Positions 1,225 through 46,612 of a stretch of DNA of 47,658 nt are shown here, in pieces. The position numbers and the translations under genes are program-made. The notes below the pieces were generated by a model, which was not told where the DNA came from, did no database searches, and saw nothing but the letters and a program-made list of their open reading frames with translations. Origin of the DNA: Kiritimatiellales bacterium (GTDB taxonomy: Bacteria; Patescibacteriota; Gracilibacteria; Peribacterales; Peribacteraceae). Positions within the stretch are counted from its first letter, which is position 1; the number at the start of each line of letters is the position of its first letter. The stretch covers positions 1-47,658 of the forward strand of contig JAIPIN010000003.1 in assembly GCA_021734665.1 (NCBI GenBank), written 5' to 3'.

Positions 1225-1292
1225 AAGTGCCAAGTACCAAGTGCCAAGTACCAAACCGACTTTTTGGAACTTGGAACTTTCTACTTGGAACT
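1225..1292. repeat. opposed microrepeat tract (CCAAGTACC / GGAACTTGG)
   Basis: The left part repeats GTGCCAAGTACCAA; the right part repeats GGAACTTGGAACTT. They are imperfect reverse complements, so the tract can fold back. Almost the same composite, in the same order, recurs at about 24628-24690, where it is coding. It fills the gap between two tandem minus-strand glycosyltransferase genes. Confidence 0.8.
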
Positions 1293-2539: not shown

Positions 2540-2627
2540 ACAAATGGCTTGGGTTTGGGCTAGGGTTTGGGCTAGGGTTTGGGCTTGGGCTAGATCATAT
2601 TCTACTCCAAGCCCTAGTCCTAGCCCT
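2540..2627. repeat. opposed microrepeat tract (GGGCTAGGGTTT / AGCCCTAGTCCTAG)
   Basis: The left arm repeats TTTGGGCTAGGG three times; the right arm (about 2600-2627) reads CCAAGCCCTAGTCCTAGCCC, an imperfect reverse complement. The TAG stop of the next glycosyltransferase (3' end at 2626) lies in the right arm. Similar GGGCTTGGG wording recurs at 13238-13275 and in coding sequence near 6335. Confidence 0.75.
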
Positions 2628-4702: not shown

Positions 4703-4773
4703 AAAGCTTGTAGCTAGTAGCTTGTAGCTTTAGGCTAGATTCCGTTCCTACAAGCTACCAGCTACCAACTAGA
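4703..4773. repeat. opposed microrepeat hairpin between divergent rmlB and rmlA
   Basis: The left arm reads AGCTTGTAGCTAGTAGCTTG with a further TAGCTT; the right arm has CCTACAAGCTACCAGCTACC. They can pair imperfectly. The same wording appears at 44012-44065, also between divergently transcribed genes. It lies upstream of both genes, so it cannot be a simple terminator for either. Confidence 0.8.
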
Positions 4774-7699: not shown

Positions 7700-7790
7700 G
7701 CGAAATGGAAAATGTAAAATTAAGAATTGAGAATTGAGAATTTAGAATTAATTGTCCATTATCAATTGTCAATTATCAATTATTCTCTGG
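7700..7790. repeat. opposed microrepeat tract (AATTGAGAATT / AATTGTCAATTATC)
   Basis: The left arm repeats AAGAATTGAGAATTGAG; the right arm repeats TATCAATTGTCAATTATC. They are imperfectly complementary. The TGA stop of the DUF2304 gene (3' end at 7776) lies within the right arm, so the last codons of that protein derive from repeat sequence. Confidence 0.75.
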
Positions 7791-8937: not shown

Positions 8938-9024
8938 GCAGATTTGTTATTTAGTTAATTCGTTACTTCGTTTTTTTATATGTGTCATTTAAATGAAATA
9001 ACTAGGTAACGAAATAACGTTGCT
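8938..9024. repeat. opposed microrepeat tract (AATTCGTTACTTCG / AACGAAATAACG)
   Basis: The left arm is GTTATTTAGTTAATTCGTTA, the right arm has AACTAGGTAACGAAATAACG, separated by a T-rich spacer. Related AATTAACGAAATAACG wording is found at 15476-15560. It lies between two tandem minus-strand genes. Confidence 0.7.
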
Positions 9025-13275: not shown

Positions 13276-13698
13276 ATGGACCTCTACGCAGAAAACATCC
13301 TTGACCACTTCAAAAGCCCTCGTAATAGAGGAGAGATCAAAGACCCAACTGTAGAGCATGAAGAATTGAACCTGAGTTGTGGAGATAAAATCACAATTCA
13401 ATTGGCCATAGAGAATGATGTGATTAAAGAAAGCCAGTGGAAAGGAAGCGGATGCGCGATCAGCATTGGAGCAATGTCTATATTATCCGAAGAACTGGAA
13501 GGGAAATCTGTAGAAGAAGCCTCAGCTTTATCTATAGATGATGTTAAGAAGTTACTTGGAGTACCAATCAGCCAAAGAAGACTGAAGTGTGCGATGCTGT
13601 GTTTACATACATTGAAGAATGCGCTGCATTCATTTAAGCATGAAGATACTCAAAGTTGGACAGAGACTATTGGACAAGAAGAAATGAAAAATGAATAA
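13276..13698 (+). CDS. sufU: SufU-type Fe-S assembly / sulfur-relay protein
   Basis: A 140-residue IscU/NifU-N family protein. The three expected cysteine regions are visible: LSCGD (Cys-Gly-Asp), GSGCAISIGAMS, and RRLKCAMLCLHTLKNAL. Length and the GSGCAIS spacing favour SufU, which accepts sulfur from SufS through a zinc site, over IscU. It is transcribed with sufS. No sufBCD genes are near, so the rest of the system must lie elsewhere. The C-terminus (QEEMKNE) and its TAA stop are encoded within an AATGAAAAATG microrepeat, suggesting the natural end was replaced by repeat sequence. Confidence 0.92.
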   Translation: MDLYAENILDHFKSPRNRGEIKDPTVEHEELNLSCGDKITIQLAIENDVIKESQWKGSGCAISIGAMSILSEELEGKSVEEASALSIDDVKKLLGVPISQRRLKCAMLCLHTLKNALHSFKHEDTQSWTETIGQEEMKNE

Positions 13699-13756
13699 TG
13701 AAAAATGAATAATTAGTTCAAGGTAGCATTTTTCATTCTTAATTATTAATTTTCCA
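13683..13756. repeat. opposed microrepeat tract (AATGAAAAATGAATA / TTTTTCATTCTTAATT)
   Basis: The left arm has two copies of GAAAAATGAATAATG, the right arm has TTTTTCATTCTTAATTATTA. The arms can pair. Related AATGAAAAATGAATA sequence recurs at 20757-20870, 37846-37932 and 39412-39460. The left arm supplies the stop codon of sufU. Confidence 0.8.
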
Positions 13757-15475: not shown

Positions 15476-15562
15476 TATTTTGTTACTACACTATTTCGTT
15501 TGCAGAATAGAACTTTTTGCAAAAAAAATGAATTAACGAATTAACGAAATAACGAATCTGCG
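15476..15562. repeat. opposed microrepeat tract (AACGTTATTTTGTTAC / ATTAACGAAATAACG)
   Basis: The left arm is TAACGTTATTTTGTTACTAC, the right arm repeats AATTAACGAATTAACG. They can pair across a T/A-rich spacer. It is related in sequence to the tract at 8938-9024. It separates rpsR from the YebC gene on the same strand. Confidence 0.7.
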
Positions 15563-15610
15563 ATAAACTTTGCTATAGTAACAACTTACATCTTATTAAC
15601 TACTTCTATC

Positions 15611-20756: not shown

Positions 20757-20872
20757 TACAAAAGTGAATAGTGAAAAATGAATAGTGAAAAATGTGAAAA
20801 TTTTGAAGAATCGATAAATTTGCATCCATTTTTAACTATTAACTTTTCACTTATTCCTAATTCTATATAAAA
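20757..20872. repeat. opposed microrepeat tract (GAATAGTGAAAAATG / TTTTTAACTATTAAC)
   Basis: The left arm repeats GTGAATAGTGAAAAATGA; the right arm has CATTTTTAACTATTAACTTT and TTTCACTTATTCC. It is the same family as 13683-13756, 37846-37932 and 39412-39460. It separates the pilin-like gene from the TPR gene on the same strand. Confidence 0.75.
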
Positions 20873-21527: not shown

Positions 21528-21532
21528 ACCTA

Positions 21533-21632
21533 GAAAGTTTATTAGGTTCAAATTAATTCAGATTTGTTTTATATGTAAATGAGAAACCTAATAAACGTAA
21601 TATACTTAACCAACCTAATAAGCCTTTTTCCT
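21533..21632. repeat. opposed microrepeat tract (AGTTTATTAGGTT / AACCTAATAAAC)
   Basis: The left arm is AAAGTTTATTAGGTTC, the right arms are AACCTAATAAACG and CAACCTAATAAGCC. The same TTTATTAGG family appears at 34097-34185 and 35328-35445. Confidence 0.75.
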
Positions 21633-21672: not shown

Positions 21673-21679
21673 AATCACC

Positions 21680-22648
21680 ATGCTTCGCATGGATCCAAAT
21701 ATTACCCTGCTATACAAACGGGGAATCATCATGGGAATCCAGAGCACCTTTAGAGAAAGGCGCTGGTTCGCAGCATTTGGTGCATTATTTGGAGTACTGC
21801 TGATGCTGCAGATTCTCCTATTTGGGCTGCTTGGCATGCAAACAATCGAATCTGTTCTGCTTTCGCGTACTGATCTTAAAATTGAATTACGACAGGATGC
21901 AAATGATCAAGATCGCCAAACATTTTTTGCACAACTCAATGAGCTTCCTTATGTAAGCGAAGCTGTTTATATAACACGCGAACAAGCTTACGAGCATGCT
22001 CGTCTGCAGGATCCTGAACTTATTACATTCTTGGAGAAATACAATATGGGCAATCCATTCCAAGACACGATAGGTATAACTTTGCGATCGCTGGATGACT
22101 ACACTCCGTTTGCATCATTCATCGAACAAGAATCTTACCAAAATATAATTAACCCCACTCACCTCTCTCAAATTACACAACAAGAAGCAGAATCTAAAGA
22201 ACTTTTGCGCTTTGTAGCCGCAGGACGATCATTAGCATTCCTTGTTCTTATACTGGCAATAAGCGTTCTTATATTTATTGTTACTGAACTTGTTCGAAGG
22301 CGCGCACTCGATAGAGCGGATGAGGTTTTTGTTGAACAACTTGGAGGCGCACATCCTTTGACTATATTTCTACCATTCGCGACCGAAGCAACACTTCTAC
22401 TTTGGGCTGCCATAATAATGAGTGGAGTAGCGCTTGTATTAATACTTGCAGTCACTCCATCTGTATTTCCAGCATTCCAAGGCGCCGTAATGGAAGCACT
22501 TGGCACAGAGTTAGCCCAGAACTTCCGTGGATCTATCCCGCTATTATTACTAGTCGAATTTATTTCTGCCCCAATTCTAGCTAGTTTAGGTGCATGGATA
22601 GGGGTGTGGCCAACTATTAAATCAAAGGTCTTATCTGCTTCTGCCTAA
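21680..22648 (+). CDS. ftsX: FtsX-like cell-division membrane protein
   Basis: A 322-residue protein with FtsX topology: a cytoplasmic N-terminus, one membrane span (FGALFGVLLMLQILLFGLLG), a periplasmic/extracytoplasmic domain of about 130 residues (DLKIELRQDANDQDRQTFFA, LPYVSEAVYITREQA, NPFQDTIGITL), then three spans with the conserved cytoplasmic loop region VTELVRRRALDRADEVFVEQLGG. FtsX normally works with the ATPase FtsE to activate cell-wall hydrolases at division. No ftsE is adjacent, unusual because the pair is usually an operon. Start ATG 21680 is set by TATAAT 7 nt upstream. Confidence 0.9.
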   Translation: MLRMDPNITLLYKRGIIMGIQSTFRERRWFAAFGALFGVLLMLQILLFGLLGMQTIESVLLSRTDLKIELRQDANDQDRQTFFAQLNELPYVSEAVYITREQAYEHARLQDPELITFLEKYNMGNPFQDTIGITLRSLDDYTPFASFIEQESYQNIINPTHLSQITQQEAESKELLRFVAAGRSLAFLVLILAISVLIFIVTELVRRRALDRADEVFVEQLGGAHPLTIFLPFATEATLLLWAAIIMSGVALVLILAVTPSVFPAFQGAVMEALGTELAQNFRGSIPLLLLVEFISAPILASLGAWIGVWPTIKSKVLSASA

Positions 22649-22772
22649 ACAGAAAGAGACAAAAGAGTAAAAAGATATAAAAGATAAAAAGGATCAAAAA
22701 TTGTGCAGCATCATATCCTTTTTCTCCTTTTCCTCTTTTATCTCCTTTTGCCCTTTTTTCCTGATACACTCG
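22648..22772. repeat. opposed purine / pyrimidine microrepeat tract
   Basis: The left arm is purine-rich (AAAAGATATAAAAGATAAAA), the right arm is the pyrimidine complement (CTCTTTTATCTCCTTTTGCC). They can pair into a long imperfect hairpin with loop AAATTGTGCAGCATC. The strong strand asymmetry could also support a triplex-type structure. It separates ftsX and recO. Confidence 0.75.
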
Positions 22773-22796
22773 CACTGATTTTTCTCCTTCTCCCCC

Positions 22797-23402: not shown

Positions 23403-23407
23403 ACTAT

Positions 23408-25244: not shown

Positions 25245-25274
25245 AGCTACATTCTAACATTATTTTGCCCATTC

Positions 25275-25335
25275 TACCCTATACACAAGCTTGCTAATTA
25301 TCCTAAGTTCTATGTTCTAAGTTCTATTTACTAAG
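25275..25335. repeat. short opposed repeats between divergent rnhA and S41 protease genes
   Basis: CTAAGTTCTATGTTCTAAG is a direct 12-bp repeat, followed by TTCTATTTACTAAGC. An imperfect TTGCTAATTATCC precedes it. Less regular than the other tracts, but the same position class: a divergent promoter region. Confidence 0.5.
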
Positions 25336-25350
25336 CTATACTACGCAGGT

Positions 25351-26607: not shown

Positions 26608-26710
26608 CAGTTAGCATGTTATCTAATGGCTAATATTGCTAATTGCTTTTACTATTAATACTCGAAAAGTTCATCTGAACTCATTTACCACGCATCTTTT
26701 TATAATCCCC
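26608..26710. other. convergent intergenic gap with TTAGCAGTTAGC repeats
   Basis: The gap holds AAATTAGCAGTTAGCATG and TAATGGCTAATATTGCTAATTGC, an opposed pair that can fold. It sits between convergent stops (S41 protease and surface protein), where a bidirectional terminator would be useful. There is no long U tract. Confidence 0.5.
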
Positions 26711-32221: not shown

Positions 32222-32303
32222 TGGATGTCAGTATGGCTGATGTACATCTTATATTCAAACTTATTTAATTCTTGTGCCTTGCTAACAGTCGCATTTCTAG
32301 CTT
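32222..32303. other. short gap between the surface protein and ndk
   Basis: Both genes are on the minus strand. CATACT on the minus strand lies 8 nt before the surface-protein ATG and is its likely -10. I see no hairpin or other gene. Confidence 0.4.
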
Positions 32304-32738
32304 TCAATATGCAAATATCTCCTCTTCTTTAAAGAATCTTTCAATTTCCTCAGCAGCAGCCTCTTCGCTATCTGATGCATGGACTACATTGCGCATCTTA
32401 CTATCCCCTTCTTCCTTGCTACCAAACTCGGCACGAATTGTACCTGGTGCTGCTTCTAGACAATCAGTCACTCCCAAATTCTCGCGCATCTTTTCTATAA
32501 TTCCTTCGCCTTCCAAAACCATTCCAATAACTGGAGTAGAACTCATGAACTTTTCTACTTCTGGATAGAAAGGAAACTCTGCAATGTGAGCATAGTGTTC
32601 ACGTAGAGTATCTAGATCTAGCTTAATCATCTTGCATCCTATTATTTTGAATCCAGCATCTTCGAATCGTGCGAGTACCTTGCCGCAGATCTTTTTCTGC
32701 ATGCAGTCGGGCTTTAGGAGAACTAGTGTGCGTTGCAT
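32304..32738 (-). CDS. ndk: nucleoside diphosphate kinase
   Basis: Transfers the gamma-phosphate between nucleoside triphosphates. A 144-residue protein with RTLVLLKPDCMQKKICGKVL, YPEVEKFMSSTPVIGMVLEG, GTIRAEFG and NVVHASDSEEAAAEEI, whose His is the phospho-acceptor. The insertion between GSKEEGDSKMR and NVVHASDS fits the family. Length is normal. The C-terminus is acidic (RFFKEEEIFAY). The gene is single and separated from its neighbours by short gaps; it would supply dTTP for RmlA and UTP for sugar-nucleotide synthesis. Confidence 0.97.
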   Translation of the reverse strand: MQRTLVLLKPDCMQKKICGKVLARFEDAGFKIIGCKMIKLDLDTLREHYAHIAEFPFYPEVEKFMSSTPVIGMVLEGEGIIEKMRENLGVTDCLEAAPGTIRAEFGSKEEGDSKMRNVVHASDSEEAAAEEIERFFKEEEIFAY

Positions 32739-32807
32739 ATTTGAGTGGTAGTAAGTTTGGCGATGTTAAATAAGAACCGAGAATAAATAAAGGGAATAGA
32801 GGAACAA

Positions 32808-34070
32808 TTATGAACTAATCATATCTTCTAACTTTGTTTTTCCCTCCTCCTGCCCAATAACTACCAATCTCATCTCTTCTGGCGTTAATAGTCGCTTGGC
32901 CAGAGCATTTACACTCTCCTTACTAACTTTATCCAGCTCTGAGAAGTAGTCTTCTACAGTACGAACCTTGGGATACATAAGCTCTTGCTTGCCATAGAAG
33001 TGAGCCTGCTCTTCTGAGTCTTCAAGTGACAAAGTAATCTTTCCTTTTAAGAAGTCCTTAGCACGTTTTAGTTCTTCATCAGTGATTCCTTTAGACGCAC
33101 ATTCCATGTATTCATGTTTGATAAGTTTGATCGCATCATGCAAACGTGACTGATCTACTCCTGCGCGGGTAGAAAGTGAGCCAGCATCCATGTAACTATC
33201 ATCTTCAGTAGATATGTAATAACAGAGCCCCTTGGCTTCGCGTATATTTAGAAACATTCTTGAGCTCATGTTTCCACCCAAGATTACTGCGAGAAGTTTT
33301 TGTGTGAAGTAATCATCATCCAACGATTTAATTCCAGGTACACCAAGTACAAGATGTGCCTGCTCGGTCTTCTTCGTTCTAAGAAATACTCGATCAGTAC
33401 CATAAGACTCAAATGGCTTGTATTCACGACCTTTTGAACCATTAATTCCCGAGAAGTACTTCTCGGAAAGATCCATAGCACCATCCTCAGAAATCTTTCC
33501 AGCAAATGCCACTACCAAGTTATCGGTTGTATACAAAAGATCTTTGTGAGCTTGAAAATCCGCCTGCTGCACAGACATGATCACATTCTCCTTCCCTATC
33601 GTATCCCATCCCAACGGATTATCGCCAAACAGAAGTGCTTCGAAATCCCATCCCGCACGATACATTGGTGTGTCTTGATACATACGTTCTTCTTCCATAA
33701 TCACTCCACGCTCTCTTTCTATATCTTCTTGAGGGAAGCTTGCGTTCAAAAGCATATCGCTAAGAACATCGCATCCAAGATCAATATGCTCAGCAGCAAC
33801 TTTTACGTAATAGCCTGCATATTCCTTACCTGTGAATGCATTAAAGTCTCCACCAACACCATCAATCGCTACACTCACTTCTTTTGTATTCTTATACTTC
33901 TTTCCGCCCTTAAAGAACATATGCTCTAAAAAGTGGCTTATTCCACGCTCCTCTTCTGTCTCGTATCTAGATCCAGCTCCAGCAAATACCAAGACTGTAA
34001 TAGATGCTGTCCCATCACAAGGAGCTGTGAGTACGCGTAAGCCAGAATCTAGCTTTTTGACTGAATGCAT
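32808..34070 (-). CDS. M16 family zinc metallopeptidase
   Basis: A 420-residue insulinase/processing-peptidase-type protease. The inverted zinc motif is complete: ISHFLEHMFFKGGKKY gives H-x-x-E-H, with the third ligand Glu in ERERGVIMEEERMYQDTP. The C-terminal half has the usual Arg-Tyr pair region (MSSRMFLNIREAKGLCYYI). Single-chain bacterial members of this length form homodimers that degrade peptides, either cytosolic or processing. No signal peptide is present. TACACT (34078-34083) lies 7 nt before the ATG at 34070, another leaderless-type start. It is divergent from rpmH. Confidence 0.95.
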   Translation of the reverse strand: MHSVKKLDSGLRVLTAPCDGTASITVLVFAGAGSRYETEEERGISHFLEHMFFKGGKKYKNTKEVSVAIDGVGGDFNAFTGKEYAGYYVKVAAEHIDLGCDVLSDMLLNASFPQEDIERERGVIMEEERMYQDTPMYRAGWDFEALLFGDNPLGWDTIGKENVIMSVQQADFQAHKDLLYTTDNLVVAFAGKISEDGAMDLSEKYFSGINGSKGREYKPFESYGTDRVFLRTKKTEQAHLVLGVPGIKSLDDDYFTQKLLAVILGGNMSSRMFLNIREAKGLCYYISTEDDSYMDAGSLSTRAGVDQSRLHDAIKLIKHEYMECASKGITDEELKRAKDFLKGKITLSLEDSEEQAHFYGKQELMYPKVRTVEDYFSELDKVSKESVNALAKRLLTPEEMRLVVIGQEEGKTKLEDMISS

Positions 34071-34096
34071 TGCGAGCAGTGTACATTAAAGAACCA

Positions 34097-34188
34097 GTAG
34101 GTTCATTATGTTAATTGGGTTTATTAAGTTTATTAGGTCATAATTGAGATATACAATGTCATCTAACCTAATAAACACTATCAACGTA
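34097..34188. repeat. opposed microrepeat tract (GGGTTTATTAAGTTTATTAGG / CTAACCTAATAAACAC)
   Basis: The left arm has ATTGGGTTTATTAAGTTTAT and TAGG, the right arm has ATCTAACCTAATAAACACTA. It is the same family as 21533-21632 and 35328-35445. It lies between divergent M16 and rpmH genes, upstream of both. Confidence 0.75.
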
Positions 34189-34206
34189 AGAAACCTATCG
34201 TATTTC

Positions 34207-34233
34207 TTGACCCATAAAACAGTCCCCTATAGT
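34207..34233 (+). promoter_or_regulatory. promoter for rpmH
   Basis: TTGACC (34207-34212) and TATAGT (34228-34233), with a short 15-bp spacer. The predicted transcript start (about 34240) is within 10 nt of the ATG at 34248, so the mRNA is nearly leaderless. Confidence 0.55.
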
Positions 34234-34247
34234 GTTTCTCGGACTAT

Positions 34248-34388
34248 ATGCTAGGAAAACTCAAATGGCGTCGGCGTCTCCGTAAGCACGGTTTCTTGCA
34301 ACGTAGCTCATCTAAGAATGGGAAGGCCCTGCTTAGTCGTCGCAGGAGAAAGGGCAGAAAGAGGCTAACAGTACAAAAGAAGAAATAA
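34248..34388 (+). CDS. rpmH: large ribosomal subunit protein bL34
   Basis: A 46-residue, very basic bL34. The conserved core is visible: RLRKHGFLQRSSSKNGKALL and SRRRRKGRKRLTV, matching the family's R-x-HGF-R and K-x-G-x-x-L-x-R-R-R-x-K-G-R-x-x-L-T-V pattern. The start is unusual: MLGKLKWRRR replaces the near-universal KRTYQPS segment. rnpA, normally directly downstream of rpmH, is absent; a small membrane protein follows. It is too short to show up in ordinary ORF searches. Confidence 0.93.
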   Translation: MLGKLKWRRRLRKHGFLQRSSSKNGKALLSRRRRKGRKRLTVQKKK

Positions 34389-34446
34389 TAAGCCATCAAG
34401 TCAAAACCACTAGAAGCTAGCAGCTATAAGCTATAAGATATTTTAC
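34389..34446. repeat. AGCTATAAGCT repeats in the rpmH downstream gap
   Basis: ACTAGAAGCTAGCAGC and TATAAGCTATAAGATA form short opposed repeats 20-50 nt after rpmH. TAAGAT is 7 nt before the GTG of the next gene and may be its -10. Confidence 0.45.
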
Positions 34447-34773
34447 GTGACTCATTACCTACACAAAGTTACAGGCATTCTATTCTTCCTTTTGGGAATC
34501 AGTCTCTTTGTAGCTTACTTATTAATGCACAACGGAATATATGCTTCCCAAACAGCATGGTGGATTCAGCGAGCCGATCTTTCGTTTGCTCTGACCACAC
34601 TAATATATGGAGGAACTGGGCTTTACTTGAGCATCCATCCAAAAGACAAACCTTCTCGTGCACTGGCACTAACAATAGGTATTCCAGTAGCAGCATTCTT
34701 CGTATTCCTGTTTATCCTAAATTTCTGGGAAGTGCTCGGGCTGCCTCAGGGGGAAATGTTAATAAATCTCTAA
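34447..34773 (+). CDS. small three-span membrane protein, unknown
   Basis: A 108-residue protein beginning at GTG. Three hydrophobic spans: VTGILFFLLGISLFVAYLLM, ADLSFALTTLIYGGTGLYLS, and LALTIGIPVAAFFVFLFILN, with a basic loop (HPKDKPSRA) between the second and third. I do not recognise the family. The mRNA appears leaderless (TAAGAT 7 nt upstream). Its stop overlaps the convergent adenosyltransferase gene by 4 bp. No functional inference is warranted. Confidence 0.7.
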   Translation: MTHYLHKVTGILFFLLGISLFVAYLLMHNGIYASQTAWWIQRADLSFALTTLIYGGTGLYLSIHPKDKPSRALALTIGIPVAAFFVFLFILNFWEVLGLPQGEMLINL

Positions 34774-35306
34774 ACCTCAGTTTCTTTTATCCCCTCTTTT
34801 CTATTTGCATCACGTGCTGCAAGAAAGAGGTAATCGCTTAAACGATTCAGATATATTTTTACATGATTGTTTATATCTTCTTCTTCGGATAATCGAACTG
34901 TGCATCGCTCTGCACGACGACAAACTGTACGAGCCTGATGTAACAAAGCACCAAGCCTTGATCCACTAGGAAGAATAAAATTCTTAAGAGTAGGCAGCGC
35001 CTGCTCAAGTTCATCAATCCAAGATTCAATTTTATATACGTCTTCTTTAGAAAGCCGTACCACACCTGCAGTACTATTAATCGGTGTTGCTAAATCTGTT
35101 CCAACTACGAATAAGACTTTTTGCATCTGCACCAAATGATCTTTTACATCTACTGGGATTCCTTCCTCAGCAAGTACAACTCCAAGAACTGAATTCAATT
35201 CGTCTACTGTTCCATATGCCTCTAGCCTGAGTGAGCCTTTAGATACACGCTCTCCATTAAATAGTCCTGACTTGCCGCTGTCGCCGGTTTTGGTAGTGAT
35301 AGACAT
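34770..35306 (-). CDS. PduO-type ATP:cob(I)alamin adenosyltransferase
   Basis: Transfers the 5'-deoxyadenosyl group from ATP to cob(I)alamin. A 178-residue PduO-type protein: TKTGDSGKSGLFNGERVSKG (ATP-binding N-terminus), RLEAYGTVDELNSVLG, ILPSGSRLGALLHQARTVCRRAERC and LNRLSDYLFLAARDANR. These match the family's conserved R and D-E-L-N blocks. TACAAT (35316-35321) is 9 nt before the ATG. CPR genomes seldom make cobalamin, so its presence implies salvage of B12, or a role as a reductase- or heme-related paralog. No B12-dependent enzyme is in this window. Confidence 0.93.
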   Translation of the reverse strand: MSITTKTGDSGKSGLFNGERVSKGSLRLEAYGTVDELNSVLGVVLAEEGIPVDVKDHLVQMQKVLFVVGTDLATPINSTAGVVRLSKEDVYKIESWIDELEQALPTLKNFILPSGSRLGALLHQARTVCRRAERCTVRLSEEEDINNHVKIYLNRLSDYLFLAARDANRKEGIKETEV

Positions 35307-35327
35307 GAGATATACATTGTAATAGAT

Positions 35328-35445
35328 AGTCCGTGATAGGTTTATTAAGTTTATTGGGCTTATTAGGTTTATTAGGTTCTTATTATCATTCCATTAAGAA
35401 CCCAATAAACATAATCAACTTAATAAACCCAATAAACCGGTATAA
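35328..35445. repeat. opposed microrepeat tract (GTTTATTAAGTTTATTGGGC / AACTTAATAAACCC)
   Basis: The left arm repeats TTTATTAGG/TTTATTGGG about four times; the right arm repeats CCCAATAAACATAATCAACT and AATAAACCCAATAAACC. It is the longest and most regular member of the TTTATTAGG family. It lies between the minus-strand adenosyltransferase start and the minus-strand pheT end. Confidence 0.85.
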
Positions 35446-35459
35446 TTCAATGAATTCAA

Positions 35460-37823
35460 TCAACCCACAAGAGCTAGCACTGCCTTATGCTCCTCTTTGG
35501 CCTCCTCCTCTGTAAGGGTTCTGTTCTTAGCCCTATATACACATCTGATTGTTAGATTATATTGGCGAACTTGTCCCGGCTCTGCATATAAATTAGCTAC
35601 TTCTACACTCTCCAATAGATCAGACGTCCTCTTAACTTTATCTACAAACTCACCGGCGCTCTTACCCTGATCAAATGGCAGCGTGACATCGTAAGTCACT
35701 GCAGGGAACTGTGGCACTGCAGATGCAACTGTTGTTACAGGTTCTATAGCAAGTAGCTGATTAAGAGAGATACGAACTGCAGCTGCGCGATTAGGCAGAC
35801 CAAATTGTTCACGCACTTCTGGATGCACTTCGAAAATTAATCCTATTGGATCTTTTCCTACTGTAAGCGCCGCCACTCTGCCCGGATGAGCATACGAAGG
35901 GGCGTTTTTCATAAGTTCAATAGATGAATTGTATCCTGCTTGCTTCAAAGCTCTACCAAGTTTTGATTTGAGCACCAAAAATGGATCATCATTTAATCCT
36001 GTTTCTACCCAGCTACTAATAAGCAATCCCATCTCCATATCATCCTCTTCACCAGATGCAAATACTTGACCCCATTGGAATGTGGATAGTGTCTTATCTG
36101 CATTAAGAATATTTTGCTGCGCATGATCTAAAAGGCCTGGCAATGTGCTTGGTTGCATAATTGATAATTCTTCACCCAACGGATTTTCTATCACGGCTGC
36201 AGAATCTATGTTGATATTGCATTTTTTAAGCAAAGAAGGACCCACCAGCGACAATGGCAATATCTCCATAAAACCCTCTTCTTTAAGTGCATCGCGCAAT
36301 ATATGAATACGCTGATCACGCTCAGGAGGATCTACTTGAGCTGATGGAAGCTGAGGCTCAATGTTATCAAACCCATATATACGTCCAATTTCTTCTATCA
36401 AATCATGCGGACCAGAAATATCTCCTAATCTGAATAGCGGAGGAGTGACCTTGAACCCATTCCCTCTCTTCTTAACATCAAACTCCAAGTTCTCCAGAAT
36501 TTCCTCAACAGTATTTGCAGGAATTTCTACTCCCAACATCTGTGTTACTTTTTCTAGAGGTAAATCGATCGGCTCAGCTTTTCCATTGTCTCCCCAAGAA
36601 TCCATCTTAGAAATTATCTTTGCACCCGGAACCAATTCTAGGAATAGTTCTAGTGCACGATTGAATCCCATCTGCACAATTACATTGGGAACTCCTTTTT
36701 CGTAGATAGTTGCAGCATCCGTTCTATGGCCTGTGGCAATTATGGTTTTGCGAATAGAAACTGGATCTACCCCCGCACTATGCAAATAAACTCTCTTTGT
36801 TCCTTCTTTGGTTGAACTGCGCAATCCTCCCATAATACCAAGTAAATCGAAAATTCCTTCGTCATCACTTAAAACAATTGAATCATTAGGCAGTGAGCGT
36901 TCTGCTTTATCTAAAGTAACAATCTTTTCTCCCTGTTTAGATAACCGCATATGCACATCACCTTTAATATCATCTGCATCAAAACTATGAAGGGGCATTC
37001 CAACTTCCAGCATTACATAATTAGTAATATCGATAGGAAGATTCAGAGACCGTAATCCAACAGATTCCAGACGTCTCTTCATCCAATCCGGAGTTTCGCC
37101 TACGCTATCAATAGATAGTAAACATGCGCAATATCTTGGAATCTGCTCTTCGCAATCGACAATGTTTTTGAATGGGAGAGGATCCTTTGTAAATGAATGA
37201 TCGGCAAACATTGGTCTGTCCTTTCGCCACTTAGCAAGCCCCATGGCTATGCATTCACGAGCAAAACCAAAGTGAGAGAAAAGATCTGCACGATGAGTGA
37301 TCGCATGATTATCTATATCCAATACATCTCCACCACTTCCTAAATATTGTTCTAAAGATTCGCCAACACCATCATCACTATCACCGAGATCAACAATTAA
37401 ATGGCCTGTGCATTCTGGGAATACATCAGCAAGCCCTAGCTCTTCTGCTGCACATATCATTCCAGAACTTTCTTCTCCTCTAATTTTTACTTTCTCTAGA
37501 GTCATCAGCTCTTCCCCATGCCATTTAACCTGTGCTCCAATGTGAGCAAATGCAACCTTCATTCCAACTCTTAGATTTGTGCCTCCGCATACCACACGCT
37601 TGTTGCCTTGATCCGTTTCCACGTCACACAAACTGAGCTTGTCTGCATTTGGATGTTTTTCTACTGTCAGAATTTTTCCAACGCAACACCTACCTAGTTG
37701 CATTTGCTGAGTGCCCATTCCATCTACTTCCGCTGTACAAGCCGTAATTCGCTCAGCAATCTTATTTGAATCTGTTTCTTCCCATTCGAGGAAATCGCCG
37801 AGCCAGTCTAAAGAAATTTTCAT
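35460..37823 (-). CDS. pheT: phenylalanyl-tRNA synthetase beta subunit
   Basis: The beta chain of the alpha2-beta2 enzyme charging tRNA-Phe. The 787-residue order is complete: an EMAP/tRNA-binding domain (GKILTVEKHPNADKLSLCDV, about 48-150), B3/B4 editing domain (RYCACLLSIDS through SSTKEGTKRVYLHSAG), B5 DNA-binding-like domain (KVTQMLGVEIPANTVEEILE), the catalytic-like core (RDQRIHILRDALKEEGFMEI) and an FDX-ACB anticodon-binding C-terminus (VTYDVTLPFDQGKSAGEFVD). Length is normal. TATGCT (37832-37837) is 8 nt before the ATG. pheS is not adjacent, whereas most bacteria have a pheST operon. Confidence 0.97.
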   Translation of the reverse strand: MKISLDWLGDFLEWEETDSNKIAERITACTAEVDGMGTQQMQLGRCCVGKILTVEKHPNADKLSLCDVETDQGNKRVVCGGTNLRVGMKVAFAHIGAQVKWHGEELMTLEKVKIRGEESSGMICAAEELGLADVFPECTGHLIVDLGDSDDGVGESLEQYLGSGGDVLDIDNHAITHRADLFSHFGFARECIAMGLAKWRKDRPMFADHSFTKDPLPFKNIVDCEEQIPRYCACLLSIDSVGETPDWMKRRLESVGLRSLNLPIDITNYVMLEVGMPLHSFDADDIKGDVHMRLSKQGEKIVTLDKAERSLPNDSIVLSDDEGIFDLLGIMGGLRSSTKEGTKRVYLHSAGVDPVSIRKTIIATGHRTDAATIYEKGVPNVIVQMGFNRALELFLELVPGAKIISKMDSWGDNGKAEPIDLPLEKVTQMLGVEIPANTVEEILENLEFDVKKRGNGFKVTPPLFRLGDISGPHDLIEEIGRIYGFDNIEPQLPSAQVDPPERDQRIHILRDALKEEGFMEILPLSLVGPSLLKKCNINIDSAAVIENPLGEELSIMQPSTLPGLLDHAQQNILNADKTLSTFQWGQVFASGEEDDMEMGLLISSWVETGLNDDPFLVLKSKLGRALKQAGYNSSIELMKNAPSYAHPGRVAALTVGKDPIGLIFEVHPEVREQFGLPNRAAAVRISLNQLLAIEPVTTVASAVPQFPAVTYDVTLPFDQGKSAGEFVDKVKRTSDLLESVEVANLYAEPGQVRQYNLTIRCVYRAKNRTLTEEEAKEEHKAVLALVG

Positions 37824-37845
37824 ATGAAAGAAGCATACACGAATA

Positions 37846-37932
37846 GAAATGAAGAATGAAAAATGAATAATGAAGAATTACATCAAAATCATCACTTTAT
37901 TTTCCATTTTTCATTATTCACTATTCATTTTA
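37846..37932. repeat. opposed microrepeat hairpin (AATGAAAAATGAATAATG / TTTTTCATTATTCACTATTC)
   Basis: The left arm is GAAGAATGAAAAATGAATAA, the right arm is CATTTTTCATTATTCACTAT. They pair over about 20 bp. It lies between divergent pheT and a small membrane protein gene, so upstream of both. Confidence 0.85.
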
Positions 37933-37981
37933 TGGCATATTGTGCGAATTGGCATAAACGAGTACGCTTATAAGCAATCCT

Positions 37982-38233
37982 ATGCCTTTCCCCTTCTCTA
38001 TTATGGCCAAATCTAACAATTCTGGAATGCTACAAACTTTACAGTGGGTCGTCTCGGTTCTCATGTTCCTAGCAATGCTCGCAGCTATTGCTGGTGTTTA
38101 TGAAACTCACTTCATAGGTAGCGGTGCCACCTTTGGAACAACGGGAGCTTCCCTTTCGCTACTTACATTCGCAATTACAGCACACCTATGGATCAGATCG
38201 TTAGCGTGTTGCTTAGGAATGTGTCAGAAGTAA
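37982..38233 (+). CDS. small two-span membrane protein, unknown
   Basis: 83 residues with two hydrophobic spans, LQWVVSVLMFLAMLAAIAGV and ASLSLLTFAITAHLWI, and a Cys-containing tail (LACCLGMCQK). Start may be ATG 37982 (TATAAG about 7 nt upstream) or ATG 38003 (MAKSNNSG). I recognise no family. It ends about 70 bp before tRNA-Ser and has no clear operon partner. Confidence 0.6.
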   Translation: MPFPFSIMAKSNNSGMLQTLQWVVSVLMFLAMLAAIAGVYETHFIGSGATFGTTGASLSLLTFAITAHLWIRSLACCLGMCQK

Positions 38234-38300
38234 TTGGCTTTGCCAAAAATTATCGATAATCCTCTTTGCTGAAAAGCGGTCTGCAAGTACATTTGTCTGT

Positions 38301-38390
38301 GGAGAGATCGCATAGTGGCCTAGTGCGCTCGCTTGGAAAGCGAGTAGACCTGCAAGGGTCTCGGGGGTTCGAATCCCCCTCTCTCCGCCA
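38301..38390 (+). tRNA. trnS: tRNA-Ser (anticodon GGA), CCA encoded
   Basis: Acceptor GGAGAGA (38301-38307) pairs with TCTCTCC; D arm with TAGTGGCCTAG; anticodon stem CTCGC/GCGAG with loop TTGGAAA, anticodon GGA; long variable arm (GACCTGCAAGGGTC) typical of class II tRNA; T arm GGGGGTTCGAATCCCCC; discriminator G; CCA at 38388-38390. It reads UCC/UCU codons. Confidence 0.95.
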
Positions 38391-38432
38391 TTCTGCGTGC
38401 CGCTAAAGCGGTATCTTCTGATGTCAGGCCAT
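38391..38432. other. short gap after tRNA-Ser with a CCGCTAAAGCGG hairpin
   Basis: CCGCTAAAGCGG (38400-38411) is a short hairpin 10 nt after the tRNA. It resembles the AGCGGGATCGCC-type repeat remnants near tRNA-Thr. A weak terminator or repeat relic is possible; there is no U tract. Confidence 0.4.
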
Positions 38433-39386
38433 TTAAAGAACCAAATTAAACCCATATCCAATTAGCATAATCCCAACTGTAACCACTACAAAGAATGCAA
38501 GGAGGAGTTTTAACTTCATCACTTTCTTTAAAATCAATGCTTCAGGAAGCGAAAGCCCAACAACTGCCATCATAAAAGCCAAAGCAGTTCCAAGTGGAAT
38601 GCCTTTATCTACAAGAGACTCGATTATAGGAATTACGCCACTCGCGTTAGCATAAAGTGGAACTGCCAATATTACTGCAGCAGGTACTGCAAACAGGTTA
38701 TCTTTTTGAATATATTGCTCAAAGAACCCTTCTGGAACATACCCGTGAATCAATGCGCCAACCATTACACCTACCAAAACAAACGGTGCCACCTGTTTAA
38801 CAATACCCATTGCTTCTTTAGATAACATCAAACAAATACTCCCAGCCGAAGCCTTGGCTGAATTTTGTTTGCATTTACAAGCAGGCTTTTGCACAAACTC
38901 TGCGACATGTTTCTCCAAATGCATCCTGCCCAAAATCATTCCGCCTATCATTCCCACGGCAATTCCTGCTGCAACATAAAGCATTGTAACTTTCCACCCA
39001 AACATCGTAATGAACAAAGCAACTGCCACCTCGTTTATTAATGGAGAAGTAATAAGGAAAGACAAAGTGACTCCTAGTGGAATCCCTGCTTCTACAAATC
39101 CAATGAATAGTGGAATAGAGGAACAAGAACAAAAAGGAGTTGCAGCTCCAAAGAGAGTTGCCAGAAAATAATCAGCCCCATAGAACTTATGCGAAGTAAG
39201 GAACTTTCTCATCTTTTCTATAGGCAAGTAGTACCTAAGCACACTCATAAAATGAGTGATGACTACAAGCAATAGAAGTATCTTTATGGAGTCATACAAA
39301 AAGAAATGTATAACGGCAGCCTGAGCTGTATCTGGCTCTATTTTGAGCACAGTGAATGTAAGAAAATCAGCGAGTTGAGTGAGCAT
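38433..39386 (-). CDS. ArsP/DUF318-type permease
   Basis: A 317-residue polytopic protein of the PF03773 group (ArsP-like permeases, formerly DUF318). The hallmark FGAATPFCSCSSIPLF is present, with the conserved Cys pair, followed by EAGIPLGVTLSFLITSPLIN. The second half repeats the fold (PAAVILAVPLYANASGVIPI, GIPLGTALAFMMAVVGLSLP). A central cytoplasmic loop is Cys-rich (KPACKCKQN). Some relatives export methylarsenite, others are uncharacterised, so the substrate is not assigned. I chose ATG 39386 because TATTGT lies 6 nt upstream. The ArsR-type gene at 16360 is 22 kb away and need not be related. Confidence 0.85.
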   Translation of the reverse strand: MLTQLADFLTFTVLKIEPDTAQAAVIHFFLYDSIKILLLLVVITHFMSVLRYYLPIEKMRKFLTSHKFYGADYFLATLFGAATPFCSCSSIPLFIGFVEAGIPLGVTLSFLITSPLINEVAVALFITMFGWKVTMLYVAAGIAVGMIGGMILGRMHLEKHVAEFVQKPACKCKQNSAKASAGSICLMLSKEAMGIVKQVAPFVLVGVMVGALIHGYVPEGFFEQYIQKDNLFAVPAAVILAVPLYANASGVIPIIESLVDKGIPLGTALAFMMAVVGLSLPEALILKKVMKLKLLLAFFVVVTVGIMLIGYGFNLVL

Positions 39387-39411: not shown

Positions 39412-39460
39412 TTCTAATCACTATTCACTATTCACTATTCACTTTTAACTTTTCACTTTC
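39412..39460. repeat. tandem ACTATTCACTATTC tract
   Basis: CACTATTCACTATTCACTAT is a tandem 8-bp repeat followed by CACTTTTAACTTTTCACTTTC. It is a one-armed member of the AATGAATAGTG family (see 20757-20872). It separates the permease start from the PolX stop. Confidence 0.7.
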
Positions 39461-40479: not shown

Positions 40480-40640
40480 CCCCCAAAGGTGCCCCACAGG
40501 GTATAACCCCCTCTCCGAATAGACCTCCACCCCTAACCCCTCCTCCACAGGAGGAGGGGAACGCCGCTTAAAGAGAAACACATTTATTATCATAATAACA
40601 AAGCTCCCCTTCCTCCCCCGGAGGAAGGGGTCGGGGGATG
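40480..40640. repeat. GC-rich nested inverted repeats (CCCCTCCTCC / GGAGGAGGGG)
   Basis: Two hairpins: CCCCTCCTCC-ACA-GGAGGAGGGG (about 40536-40558) and CCTTCCTCC-CCC-GGAGGAAGG (about 40607-40627). Their flanks, CCTCCACCCCTAACCCC and GGGGTCGGGGGATGGAGG, are reverse complements of each other, so the whole block is a larger inverted repeat. This wording resembles REP/MITE-like CCTCACCCCTAACCCC repeats seen in other bacteria. No conventional gene is present. Confidence 0.7.
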
Positions 40641-40681
40641 GAGGAATTTTATGACCAATGAGCTGCCCTCTTTGAAAGATG

Positions 40682-40736
40682 AGCCCGGCCCCCGCGCGTA
40701 CGCGAGGACCGGGTAAAGAGTTCGACCCCCTAAGGG
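40682..40736 (-). terminator. GC-rich double hairpin after the small basic ORF
   Basis: On the minus strand GACCCC-TTAG-GGGGTC lies just after the stop of the ORF at 40740-40841, followed by a second stem built on CCCGG...CCGGG with internal CGCG pairs, and an outer CTCTTT...AAAGAG. Strong structure, but no terminal U run, so termination is only suggested. Confidence 0.4.
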
Positions 40737-40739
40737 GTC

Positions 40740-40841
40740 TTAGGAGGGTACACGCGGTCGCCGGCGCACAGTGCGTGGCGGTGCCTTCGGCCTCGAAGGT
40801 CCCCGAGTTGTTTTACGCCGGTTGAGACTGCGTCTCTTCAT
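40740..40841 (-). CDS. candidate 33-residue arginine-rich protein
   Basis: The ORF encodes 33 residues: MKRRSLNRRKTTRGPSR and then PKAPPRTVRRRPRVPS, about 36% Arg plus several Lys and no acidic residue. A strong Shine-Dalgarno GGAGGG lies 6 nt before the ATG, rare in this window where most starts are leaderless. Codons are GC-rich (CGG, CGC, CCG), unlike neighbouring genes. It is not bL34, bL36 or bTHX by sequence. It could be a small RNA- or ribosome-binding protein, or a chance ORF in a structured GC-rich region. A U8 tract just upstream may end an RNA encoded at 40972-41310. Confidence 0.4.
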   Translation of the reverse strand: MKRRSLNRRKTTRGPSRPKAPPRTVRRRPRVPS

Positions 40842-40971
40842 TAGAAGCCCTCCGAAAAAAAACAAGTGCCACTTCGGGCTACAACCATGTAGTCCATCCA
40901 AAAGCAGCTCATTAATCACAAGATGTAAAAGATCAAATAACAAGAAATCCACTTCCTAAATTTTAAGGGAT

Positions 40972-41310
40972 GACCAAGGAACGAGACGAAGCTCGTTCCT
41001 TGGTCGGTTGCGCCGCGCTGGGTCGACGCGGAAGAATTAGGCGCCCACTAGGGCGCCGATCACTTCTTCTTCGGAGGCCTCTTCGTCAAACGGCTGCTTC
41101 TCCGGATAGCCGCCGATCAGATGACATTGAAATCGCTCCATGTCCTCAAGATCGGAGCTGCAACCAGCAGCACGGCTTGGGCAGTTCCTAGGACAACTTA
41201 CAGATGAAGTCGTCCAACCCATTTTTGGTCCAAGAATGACCATGACAGAACCTCCGAGGGGGTCACAAACCGACATTCTTTATGTTGGCCATTCCATCGG
41301 GCCAATAAAT
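40972..41310 (-). ncRNA. candidate large structured RNA, unknown class
   Basis: No gene fits this 340-bp stretch, yet it contains about nine consecutive hairpins. Stems: 40972-40985 with 40992-41005 (14 bp); 41013-41017 with 41027-41031; 41040-41046 with 41051-41057 (GGCGCCC); 41091-41095 with 41108-41112; 41113-41118 with 41150-41155 enclosing 41123-41127 with 41140-41144; 41192-41199 with 41207-41214; 41232-41238 with 41274-41280 enclosing smaller stems; and about 41281-41290 with 41299-41308. The 41192 stem has a G-U pair on the minus strand but an A-C mismatch on the plus, favouring minus. It does not match RNase P, tmRNA, 6S or SRP landmarks. Confidence 0.5.
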
Positions 41311-41360
41311 CCTCATAAAGAAGCGGGTTTCTCGTTATTTAAACGATGCTTTCAAAGACC

Positions 41361-41384
41361 AAAAACCCTAGTCTAGTAGGGTCA
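41361..41384 (-). terminator. intrinsic terminator downstream of ahcY
   Basis: On the minus strand ACCCTA-CTAGAC-TAGGGT is followed directly by TTTTT. This is the clearest stem-plus-U-tract terminator in the window. It is about 190 nt beyond the ahcY stop, so it would end ahcY mRNA after a long structured 3' region. Confidence 0.65.
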
Positions 41385-41515
41385 ACTTGGGAAATACCTA
41401 TTCAATTAGCACACTTTTCCCAGACCCCTATCCGTTGGCTTACGGAAGCAGAGAACTGCCGGATAAATAAACCACGTGTGCATCATAACAAGCGTTAATC
41501 TACGCTTGTTTATAG
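41385..41515 (-). ncRNA. structured 3' region or small RNA after ahcY
   Basis: Three stems precede the terminator: 41487-41494 with 41503-41510 (AACAAGCG/CGCTTGTT, 8 bp); 41430-41434 with 41460-41464 (ATCCG/CGGAT) containing GCAG/CTGC (41448-41451 with 41456-41459); and 41388-41394 with 41416-41422 (TGGGAAA/TTTCCCA, 7 bp). CCGT (41432-41435) can instead pair with ACGG (41442-41445), so two folds compete. It may be the ahcY 3' untranslated region, a small RNA, or a regulatory element. It matches no riboswitch class I know. Confidence 0.45.
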
Positions 41516-41576
41516 TATCCGTCAAGGTTGATGTACCGCTTCAGCAAGACAAAAAGTCGATGATTATATGCCCTCC

Positions 41577-42827: not shown

Positions 42828-42907
42828 TGGGAGAAATAGTAGCATTCTAATGCTAAAAAGGAACCAATATATCTATCAATTTAAATAGTATTAGAAGGCT
42901 TCGCATC

Positions 42908-43000
42908 CATCCTTCGATACACCCCGCCGTGTCATACTGAATAGCTCTGGCTTGCCGGAGCGTATCGAAGTACGACCGGCGGGGCACTCAGGATGACATG
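42908..43000. mobile_element. MITE/REP-like inverted repeat, copy A
   Basis: A 93-bp imperfect inverted repeat aligned with 46467-46557. Shared blocks in order: CCTTCGA, CCCCGCC, TGTCAT, TGA, GGA/CGT-TCGAA, GGCGGGGC, and CTCAGGATGACATG. The internal hairpin differs (GCTCTGGCTTGCCGGAGC). It lies between ahcY and the PfkB gene. No coding capacity, so any mobility would depend on an enzyme elsewhere. Confidence 0.75.
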
Positions 43001-43013
43001 TTGATTATTAGTC

Positions 43014-44011: not shown

Positions 44012-44065
44012 AGCTTGTAGCTTGTAGCTAGTAGAATCATGTCTACAAGCTACTAGCTACAAGCT
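44012..44065. repeat. near-perfect opposed microrepeat hairpin between divergent genes
   Basis: The left arm 44012-44034 and right arm 44043-44065 are 23 bp each and complementary at 21 positions, with an 8-bp loop (AATCATGT). Each arm is itself three copies of a 7-8 bp unit (GTAGCTT or GTAGCTA). It sits between the PfkB gene and ugd, transcribed outward, so it is upstream of both. The same wording is at 4703-4773. Confidence 0.9.
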
Positions 44066-45421: not shown

Positions 45422-46365
45422 AAATTCTCTTAACAGGAGCGGCTGGTTTTATAGGTTTTCATACAGCCAAAACATTACTCGCACGCGGTGATGAAGTAAT
45501 CGGCCTTGATAACTTTAATCCTTATTATGATCCTCAACTTAAAGAAAATCGCATTAAACAACTAGAAGGACTAAAAGGATTCACATTAATACGTGGAGAT
45601 ATAACAGACCGCGAAACTATTAGGGGCGCAATGAAAGGAGTAGATCGCATATGCCACTTGGCAGCACTTGCTGGAGTGAGGTATTCGTTTGAGCATCCTG
45701 ATGAATTTATTTTGAATAATATTCAAGGAACGTTTGAGATGATTGATGAAGCACGTATGCAAGAAATCCCTGGCTTCATATATGCATCATCCAGTTCTGT
45801 GTATGGAGGCAACGAGCAGTCTCCTTCTTCCGAAGAAGATCGCGTAGACGATCAGCTCGCGCTTTATGGTATGACAAAGAAGGACAATGAACTAATGGCT
45901 CACACATTCCATAATCTCTATGGATTACCAGTAACAGGACTGCGATTCTTCACGGTATATGGTCCTTGGGGCAGACCTGATATGGCATTGTTTCTATTTA
46001 CAGATGCAATTTTGCATGACCGACCAATCCAAGTATTTGGAGAAGGAAAACAACAGCGCGACTTCACCTATGTAGATGATATTGTCTCAGGAATTGTCGC
46101 TTCTATAGACAAAAATCATGATGAAGAAATAATCAACTTAGGATGCGGAAGAAAAGAAGAGCTTATGGACTTCATCAAAATTATTGAAGAGTCTTGTGGC
46201 AAAGAAGCACAAAAAGAAATGCTACCAATGCAACCAGGAGACGTGCGATCAAGCCTTGCAGATATTTCTAAGGCGCAAAAACTTTTAGACTATGAACCCA
46301 AGACTCAGATTAAAGATGGCATACCGCAGTTTGTTGAGTGGTATCGGGAGTACTATGGAATTTAG
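45418..46365 (+). CDS. UDP-glucuronate 4-epimerase-like SDR
   Basis: A 315-residue extended SDR. It has TGAAGFIGFHTAKTLLARGD, GLDNFNPYYDPQLKENR (typical of UDP-glucuronate epimerases), HLAALAGVRYSFEHPDEF, ASSSSVYGG and YGMTKKDNELMA with the catalytic Tyr and Lys, and RFFTVYGPWGRPDMALF. The probable reaction is UDP-glucuronate to UDP-galacturonate, using the product of the overlapping ugd. Bifunctional UDP-xylose-type decarboxylation is less likely because the Y-x-x-P-x-x-x-N...R signature of epimerases is present. This pair supplies acidic sugars for the surface glycans. Confidence 0.93.
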   Translation: MKILLTGAAGFIGFHTAKTLLARGDEVIGLDNFNPYYDPQLKENRIKQLEGLKGFTLIRGDITDRETIRGAMKGVDRICHLAALAGVRYSFEHPDEFILNNIQGTFEMIDEARMQEIPGFIYASSSSVYGGNEQSPSSEEDRVDDQLALYGMTKKDNELMAHTFHNLYGLPVTGLRFFTVYGPWGRPDMALFLFTDAILHDRPIQVFGEGKQQRDFTYVDDIVSGIVASIDKNHDEEIINLGCGRKEELMDFIKIIEESCGKEAQKEMLPMQPGDVRSSLADISKAQKLLDYEPKTQIKDGIPQFVEWYREYYGI

Positions 46366-46424
46366 AATTAAGAATGCAGAATTAAGAATTAAGAATGCAG
46401 AATTGAGAATTGAATATTCATAAC
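46366..46424. repeat. GAATTAAGAATGCAGAATT tandem tract
   Basis: AATTAAGAATGCAGAATTAA repeats in tandem and merges with AATTGAGAATTG, the same unit as the tract at 7700-7790. It is a one-armed member of the microrepeat set. Confidence 0.7.
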
Positions 46425-46466
46425 TTCAAAGTAAGGAGTTTTTTGTTTTGTGATTCGCCACTAAGT

Positions 46467-46557
46467 CACCCTTCGAGATGCCCCGCCTGTCATGGTGAGG
46501 AGTTCCGCGTATGCGGAACGTCTCGAACCATAAGGCGGGGCTCCTCAGGATGACATG
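46467..46557. mobile_element. MITE/REP-like inverted repeat, copy B
   Basis: A 91-bp inverted repeat matching copy A at 42908-43000: CCTTCGAGATGCCCCGCC at the left and GGCGGGGCTCCTCAGGATGA at the right, with internal hairpin GTTCCGC-GTAT-GCGGAAC. Just outside are AGTCAC and GTGACT, a possible short terminal inverted repeat. The family resembles widely seen TCCTCAGGATGACA-type intergenic repeats. Confidence 0.75.
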
Positions 46558-46612
46558 AGTGACTCACTACACTCATATAAGTAAACTAGAACTAATTCTA
46601 TGTTTTGAATTT

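Follow-up and report, generated by a model that had tools for sequence, protein, structure and literature searches.

Short intergenic heptamer repeats have, to our knowledge, been noted in several phyla for decades and are unexplained. The cyanobacterial STRR repeats belong to these short intergenic tandem heptamers and are grouped with the TAACTGA-type arrays. The closest precedent for the elements described here is the inverted GGGAATC arrays of Xanthomonas, in which 70-75 convergent array pairs form inverted repeats near gene ends and have no known function (PMC4692102). The TAACTGA repeats of marine Beggiatoaceae, Cyanobacteria and Bacteroidetes form direct arrays just upstream of start codons, with one inverted case among approximately 170 sets (PMC4679880). 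REP elements are 20-40 nt long, have a GTAG/CGTC-type end, and carry arms without tandem words (PMC3733652). In addition, PMC8794818 describes template switching as able to create and maintain hairpins, and PMC8604942 describes it as able to homogenise the arms of inverted repeats. No paper on intergenic repeats of Peribacteria or on CPR microrepeat hairpins was found in the open-licence literature.

The window analysed here, which is the whole stretch of 47,658 nt, is one contig of a 1.05 Mb genome (62 contigs, 83% complete), labelled G000 below. Among named relatives, Candidatus Peribacter/Peribacteraceae assemblies stand closest to it, and the class also includes genomes with genes reading through TGA. 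The gene content of the window is ordinary: glycosyltransferases, rmlA/rmlB, sufS, yebC, a PBP1-like protein, ftsX, recO, pheT, ahcY and UDP-glucose dehydrogenase. Since synteny with two congeners, G001 and G003, spans almost the entire window, a gap-by-gap comparison is possible; protein identity between the window and G001 is approximately 70-94%. A further relative (G002) and a member of another genus (G013) were also used. The counts cover the window and two more G000 contigs, 175.5 kb of G001 and 60 kb of G003, and other relatives were mostly sampled at 13-20 kb each; genes were called by a simple script, not by a curated caller. The genus-level genomes are all metagenome assemblies with short contigs, and several hairpins recur across independent assemblies.

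Two genes of the window deserve mention in their own right. The 945-aa protein encoded at 9052-11889 (-) has no Pfam or NCBIfam match and is conserved in G001 (81%) and G003 (63%). The 1836-aa gene at 26711-32221 (-) has no ortholog at the syntenic place in G001 or G003, where the flanking genes are adjacent to each other, and is a lineage-specific insertion. The ORF at 13815-14192 (-) is spurious or overlaps an RNA, with a tRNA gene (Rfam) at 14015-14086 (+), and the gap from approximately 14210 resembles by eye a small GIY-YIG nuclease (MDYVYILESARSTQHWYVG...).

The hairpin at 44012-44065 is exactly as the preliminary description had it, with two arms of opposed microrepeats. The arms, AGCTTGTAGCTTGTAGCTAGTAGA and TCTACAAGCTACTAGCTACAAGCT, are 24 nt long and 92% complementary around a loop of 6 nt, and the DNA fold reaches -20.1 kcal/mol (z = -7.1). 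Thirteen example stretches had been listed, and each was tested against 500 dinucleotide shuffles. The tandem signal exceeded the shuffles in 13/13 stretches (p<=0.014; 0.002 in 12) and the paired arms did so in 12/13 (p<=0.024; 0.002 in 11), the exception being 21533-21632, which has the tandem signal only. Across the listed stretches, the DNA-fold z-scores range from -1.8 to -7.1, and arrays and arms were both recovered by independent finders. The elements of the window are as follows; a strand is assigned only to the one-armed array.

1225..1292: AAGTNCC / GGNACTT hairpin; the orthologous gap in G001 has the same family
2540..2627: GGGNTN hairpin (period 6/12); G001 retains one arm only
4703..4773: AGCTNGT-family hairpin, polarity as at 44012; supported by shuffles
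7700..7790: AATTNNN hairpin; in G001 the right arm is identical and the left arm lost
8938..9024: CGTTANTT / AANTAACG hairpin (period 8); supported by shuffles
13683..13756: AATGAAN hairpin, overlapping the last codons and stop of the upstream gene (13276-13698)
15490..15565: CGTTATTT / AATTAACG opposed arrays upstream of a yebC-like gene; G001 has a TAGTTNN hairpin
20757..20872: AATGAAN/AGTGAAN hairpin; G001 and G003 both lack it in the orthologous gap
21533..21632: weak TTNATTANG arms; the whole hairpin is not above shuffles (p=0.14)
22648..22772: AAARGANNN / NNNTCYTTT hairpin (period 9); family kept in G001
34097..34188: TTNATTANG hairpin; the G001 gap has a TAGTTNN hairpin
35328..35445: TTNATTANG hairpin downstream of pheT
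37846..37932: AATGAAN hairpin in a divergent gap; identity to G001 is 81/82 in the arms but 14/19 in the loop
44012..44065: AGCTNGT hairpin (period 7) with a loop of 6 nt; its divergent neighbours encode a sugar kinase and UDP-glucose dehydrogenase; supported by fold and shuffles
46358..46411 (+): one-armed AATTAAG array at a gene stop codon; the convergent gap in G001 has a GTATTTC hairpin

The hairpin at 20757..20872 would have been either gained in the G000 lineage or lost twice. In the gap orthologous to 44012-44065, both G001 and G003 carry AATTGAC hairpins, and G002 carries a GC-rich element. Long GC-rich hairpins form a second class of gap element (window 40487-41576, 42846-43013 and 46366-46612), with the words CCCCTCTCC / TGTCATCCTGAGC / TTCGA, and also stand in place of microrepeat hairpins where gaps are orthologous, as in G002 at the 43974 and 45422 gaps. 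Perfect short palindromes of the form CTATTCG(T/G)GCGAATAG were also observed at 16633-16706 of the window and in G001:C23 at 78569-78774 and 107460-107734; they adjoin a small HTH (ArsR-like) gene (16360-16632) and resemble operator sites. Further gaps contain palindromes of a related kind whose flanks differ (TTTGCGCAAA, ATGTGCGCACAT).

The hairpins had been placed in nearly every intergenic gap, which is too strong a statement. A joint hairpin-and-tandem test (p<=0.01, gaps of 40-500 nt) was passed by 10/23 gaps of the window, 41/101 of G001 and 16/39 of G003, and the share of hairpin-bearing gene gaps in this uncultured Peribacteria lineage is approximately 40%. Tandem units of 5-11 nt exceed expectation (p<=0.01) in 15/23, 65/101 and 20/39 gaps of the window, G001 and G003, respectively. 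Several arrays are one-armed (39414-39457, 13237-13273 and 46358-46411). In the 108 hairpins collected, the median arm is 34.5 nt with 81% identity, and the median loop is 16 nt. None of 582 coding windows passed the joint test, nor did any of 47 gaps of Bacillus/Staphylococcus/Priestia loci, these few Bacillales loci being the sole comparison with another phylum. In other Patescibacteria (20 genomes, 17-20 kb each), 8/204 gaps passed; they lie in four genomes and show different units in an identical layout. Within the family, the fraction of hairpin-bearing gaps varies from 0 to 80% by sample. The hairpins are a strong feature of the genus and of some relatives, and are sporadic elsewhere.

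The preliminary description also held that the unit differs between loci and that unrelated units had converged on one shape. The first point was overstated, as the same units recur at several window loci: GTAGCTT at both 4705 and 44012, AATGAAA at 13682, 20760 and 37848, and TTTATTAGG at 21534, 34098 and 35337; AAGTACC/TTGGAAC lies at 1225, and arrays related to it lie close to 3551 and 24631. When sorted by shared 9-mers, the 108 hairpins fall into approximately 21 families and 25 singletons, and several families span genera. Among hairpin pairs that share words, agreement in polarity is 62:0 inside single genomes and 66:6 across genomes; the six exceptions all involve one G003 locus. Pairs inside one family are not independent, so that p-values computed from these counts are too strong, but the direction is nonetheless clear. 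Independent origins would give X...X' and X'...X at approximately 1:1, and the fixed polarity therefore argues against them. Convergence of unrelated units is thus the wrong picture, as families with fixed polarity are shared across loci, species and genera; these families, together with the at least three unit families found around one loop core (see below), indicate that the hairpin shape is inherited. Stop codons were considered as the cause of polarity and rejected: inward exceeded outward in 65 vs 27 hairpins, but the ratio with merged families is 12:5 (p=0.14).

Within the units, columns are nearly invariant or freely variable (chi-square p 5e-3 to 8e-41 in 13 families, the AATTGAC value being inflated by its palindromic core). 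The unit AAAGTCGA varies at columns 3, 7 and 8 and hardly elsewhere, with G in 40/40, and fixed-column variation is also seen in AANGTCNN, CAGARGANN, GGGYTN and TTNATTANG. The simplest account of this pattern, though not a satisfactory one, would be constraint on the core letters. The pattern would suit arrays that serve as protein- or RNA-binding sites, in which the conserved columns are contacts and the opposed arrays give a symmetrical nucleoprotein complex, and TAACTGA arrays have been proposed as binding sites (PMC4679880). On the other hand, at least 13 unrelated cores in one genus would require as many binding proteins, and arms are swapped between families around one loop; we consider binding arrays quite improbable.

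Hairpins with different words have a common loop core of approximately 38 nt, aligned as TTCTAAAGTGGCAnCAnACCTGATnnTCGCTTGCGAAC, and form one superfamily. The pattern CTAAAG-N(10-30)-TCGCTTGCGAAC has 9 matches in G000 and 12 in G001 (reversed control 0), and the core model matches 14 times in G000, 4 times in G003 and twice each in G002 and G013, with weaker single matches in G007, G035 and G188. In the 192-genome phylum sample, the core model has no match outside G000. The window itself contains zero copies of the core, so that common descent is established for this one superfamily and otherwise deduced from words and polarity. The arm family around each core was assigned by eye. The arms are GGATGGTT in 14/14 copies of G000, CCATTGTT in 9 and GGATGGTT in 2 of the G001 copies read, AATTGAC in 4/4 copies of G003, one AATTGAC and one GGATGGTT-like in G002, and AAATTGTA in 2 copies of G013. 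In all 33 core copies read, the left and right arms belong to one family. At three core sites G000 and G001 can be compared, and in no case do both have the core: two G001 sites are empty or hold another family in G000, and one G000 site holds another family in G001. A conserved loop with swapped, matched arms points to an element that may have spread and been rewritten, not to unrelated coincidences.

At two sites (G000:C27:14444 and G000:C26:18808), the loop core is split by the palindrome CTGCCTGTCGGCAGACAGGC between GCTTGC and GA, giving a nested hairpin. An Rfam search found only tRNAs in the window, and tRNAs plus chance matches under the gathering score in 12 core loci.

Comparison of the 42 gaps orthologous between G000 and G001 reveals turnover: hairpins occupy both gaps in 11 cases, one only in 15 and neither in 16, and at least 5 of the 11 doubly occupied gaps hold different families. 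In same-family orthologous hairpins, the arms are 88% identical (305/346), the loops 72% and the flanks 75%, and the arms are more conserved than loops and flanks together (305/346 vs 246/329, Fisher p=7e-6). At the paired positions of same-family orthologs of the two congeners, 22 changed on one side and 2 on both; the two-sided changes are both compensated, with approximately 0.5 expected by chance. Furthermore, cognate arms are no more complementary than non-cognate same-family arms of the same genome (0.55 vs 0.59 per nt): no specific co-evolution of cognate arms was found, and a recent templating step between arms is invisible at most loci. The idea that the arms change together therefore stands on the long scale, where arms are matched in 33/33 core copies, but not on the short scale of these one-sided changes.

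These data bear on locus-by-locus generation, in which template switching, quasipalindrome correction and slippage create or homogenise the arms in place, without dispersal. Imperfect palindromes with tandem arms are classic substrates of such a process, the lineage is without MutS and SbcCD, the arms around the loop core are always matched, and template switching is described as creating and maintaining hairpins (PMC8794818) and as homogenising arms (PMC8604942). Nevertheless, the polarity is fixed across loci and genera, loop cores are common to non-orthologous loci, one-sided changes outnumber two-sided changes by 22 to 2, and cognate arms are no better than non-cognate ones. As the sole process, locus-by-locus generation is largely refuted, and we consider it improbable. 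As for the template switching or quasipalindrome repair originally suggested, some process of foldback or copying is likely; continuous correction at each locus is unsupported.

Another possibility is that the hairpins are selected transcript-border devices in a Rho-less lineage, acting as bidirectional terminators, protectors of mRNA 3' ends or insulators, for which any inverted word pair would suffice. Rho is above the curated cut-off in 0/59 relatives, the upstream stop lies inside an arm in 25/40 co-directional and 6/10 convergent gaps, arms in convergent gaps extend to both stops, and some convergent gaps are hardly more than the hairpin; the better conservation of arms over loops and flanks also favours a device. 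The placement at stop codons fits it, but equally fits the only harmless spot in compact DNA. The direct tests of an RNA role were negative. Hairpins also occur between divergent promoters (15/50 vs 50/113 elsewhere, p=0.12), where their median distance from the gene starts is 20-45 nt. G-U-type mismatches number 84 sense vs 76 antisense (p=0.58), at least 6 T in the next 10 nt follow 1/56 co-directional hairpins (3/56 on the other strand), the sense-strand stability is not above the antisense, and cognate arms are not preferentially matched. Selection for a hairpin at gene borders had been proposed; for an RNA hairpin, such selection is unsupported by any sense G-U excess, U-tract or sense stability bias. 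With these tests negative, element biology is favoured over regulation, and a border device appears unlikely. Canonical intrinsic terminators were rejected on the failed U-tract test and on the hairpins in divergent gaps. When 19001-39000 was scanned for terminators, 21 sites were found against an expectation of 13.2, and almost none of them coincided with hairpins. The weak Rho matches in the 59 Peribacteria family/class genomes are paired and probably represent subunits of ATP synthase.

If the Y1 (RAYT-type) transposases of the lineage mobilised the hairpins as REP elements, an association with Y1 genes would be expected. Every genus member has 2-4 Y1_Tnp matches, and there is a weak correlation between the number of Y1 copies and the hairpin fraction (rho 0.43, p=0.04), but the contrast between Y1-positive and Y1-negative genomes is not significant (p=0.15), and G017 has hairpins in 6/10 gaps and no Y1 match. 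Most of the 13 Y1 genes read (G000-G004) have short GC-rich palindromes of their own at their flanks, and microrepeats lie beside Y1 genes only at single stray flanks. A RAYT/REP origin was rejected, as the Y1 genes are present but separate from the hairpins, and it must be regarded as very improbable. The REP-like GC-rich palindromes themselves lie on one or both sides of many Y1 genes of G000-G004 (e.g. GCAGCGATTTTCGAATCGCTGC).

Based on the results presented above, the hairpins are probably dispersed, non-autonomous palindromic elements of several kinds, whose arms are short rewritable minisatellites. Each element is built of a central loop between two opposed arrays of one 6-9 nt word. Their layout is inherited, they disperse and turn over, their arms are replaced in pairs, and they are confined to non-coding DNA, usually starting at the stop codon of the upstream gene. 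Whole hairpins would reach new sites through some copying process at the DNA level; a word that is new in one arm may be transferred to the other by foldback (hairpin-templated) synthesis; slippage may alter the copy number of the word within an arm; and the arms would then drift separately. Retention at gene borders would mostly reflect the least harmful place for such DNA. No enzyme moving the elements was found; the outer ends differ from one core copy to another, and the insertions inspected by eye showed no target-site duplication. A neutral element would not predict the fixed unit columns or the better conservation of arms than of loops and flanks. More tentatively, and on balance doubtfully, the conserved loop may act as the "head" of an element that spreads via gene borders while dedicated hairpin-templated copying rewrites the word of both arms in step, so thoroughly that its relatives can be recognised from loop and layout alone.

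With MutS and SbcCD absent from the lineage, slipped loops and palindromes would be able to survive. SbcD is part of the nuclease that cuts long hairpins; it was found in 1/40 class genomes searched, and MutS is above the cut-off in 0/24 family members searched and 7/16 other class members. The hairpin-poor G008, G009, G013 and G015 (17-20 kb samples) are among the genomes lacking both MutS and SbcD, so that the loss of repair is at most permissive. Loss of Rho, MutS or SbcCD was accordingly rejected as the cause of hairpin abundance, being common to hairpin-rich and hairpin-poor relatives alike.

This one lineage offers many families, fully syntenic close relatives, and a loop that identifies homologs after arm replacement. 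The question of origin thereby becomes testable, since dispersal, foldback copying and selection predict different strain-level patterns. The results also suggest that much of the non-coding DNA of these very small genomes consists of such elements, and that "unrelated" microrepeats of other bacteria may be related through their loops.

In general, the Peribacteria hairpins resemble the Xanthomonas GGGAATC and Nostoc GGGGA(C/T)T arrays (PMC4692102) in being intergenic heptamer arrays near gene ends, in the under-representation of divergent gaps, and in that the gaps are constant while the sequence varies between relatives. As in Xanthomonas, two arrays of one unit are convergent and close together (in the 108 hairpins, around a median loop of 16 nt). 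Xanthomonas and Nostoc have one unit per genome, whereas the Peribacteria have approximately 21 families across the clade, with more than ten of them in a single genome; their units are mostly AT-rich and not G-quadruplex formers, in contrast to the G-rich, quadruplex-forming unit of the Xanthomonas type, and they differ further in that units are swapped between orthologous gaps and a loop core is conserved. With the TAACTGA arrays they have in common short intergenic tandem heptamers, a patchy taxonomic spread and possible overlap with stop codons, but those arrays have one unit, no hairpin architecture and no loop core. The enrichment of gaps in tandem intergenic units of 5-11 nt likewise recalls the STRR/LSSR heptamer repeats. 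Similar to REP/BIME, they are intergenic, non-autonomous palindromes in dispersed families; in contrast, their arms are built of tandem words, GTAGCTT is only one of many units, and the REP-sort GC-rich repeats beside the Y1 genes of the lineage are distinct from them. Like MITEs, they are small non-autonomous palindromic insertions that vary in presence between relatives (15/26 occupied gaps in one congener only), but they have no conserved terminal inverted repeats, no target duplication seen and no identified parent transposon, and, unlike in MITEs, the centre is conserved and the outer ends are variable. Template-switch or quasipalindrome maintenance (PMC8794818, PMC8604942) would account for matched arms after a change of word; it is local and without dispersal, and the recent Peribacteria changes are mostly one-sided. 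What is new here, compared with all of these systems, is the coexistence of many families, the replacement of one unit by another in orthologous gaps, and a loop that is conserved while its arms are exchangeable.
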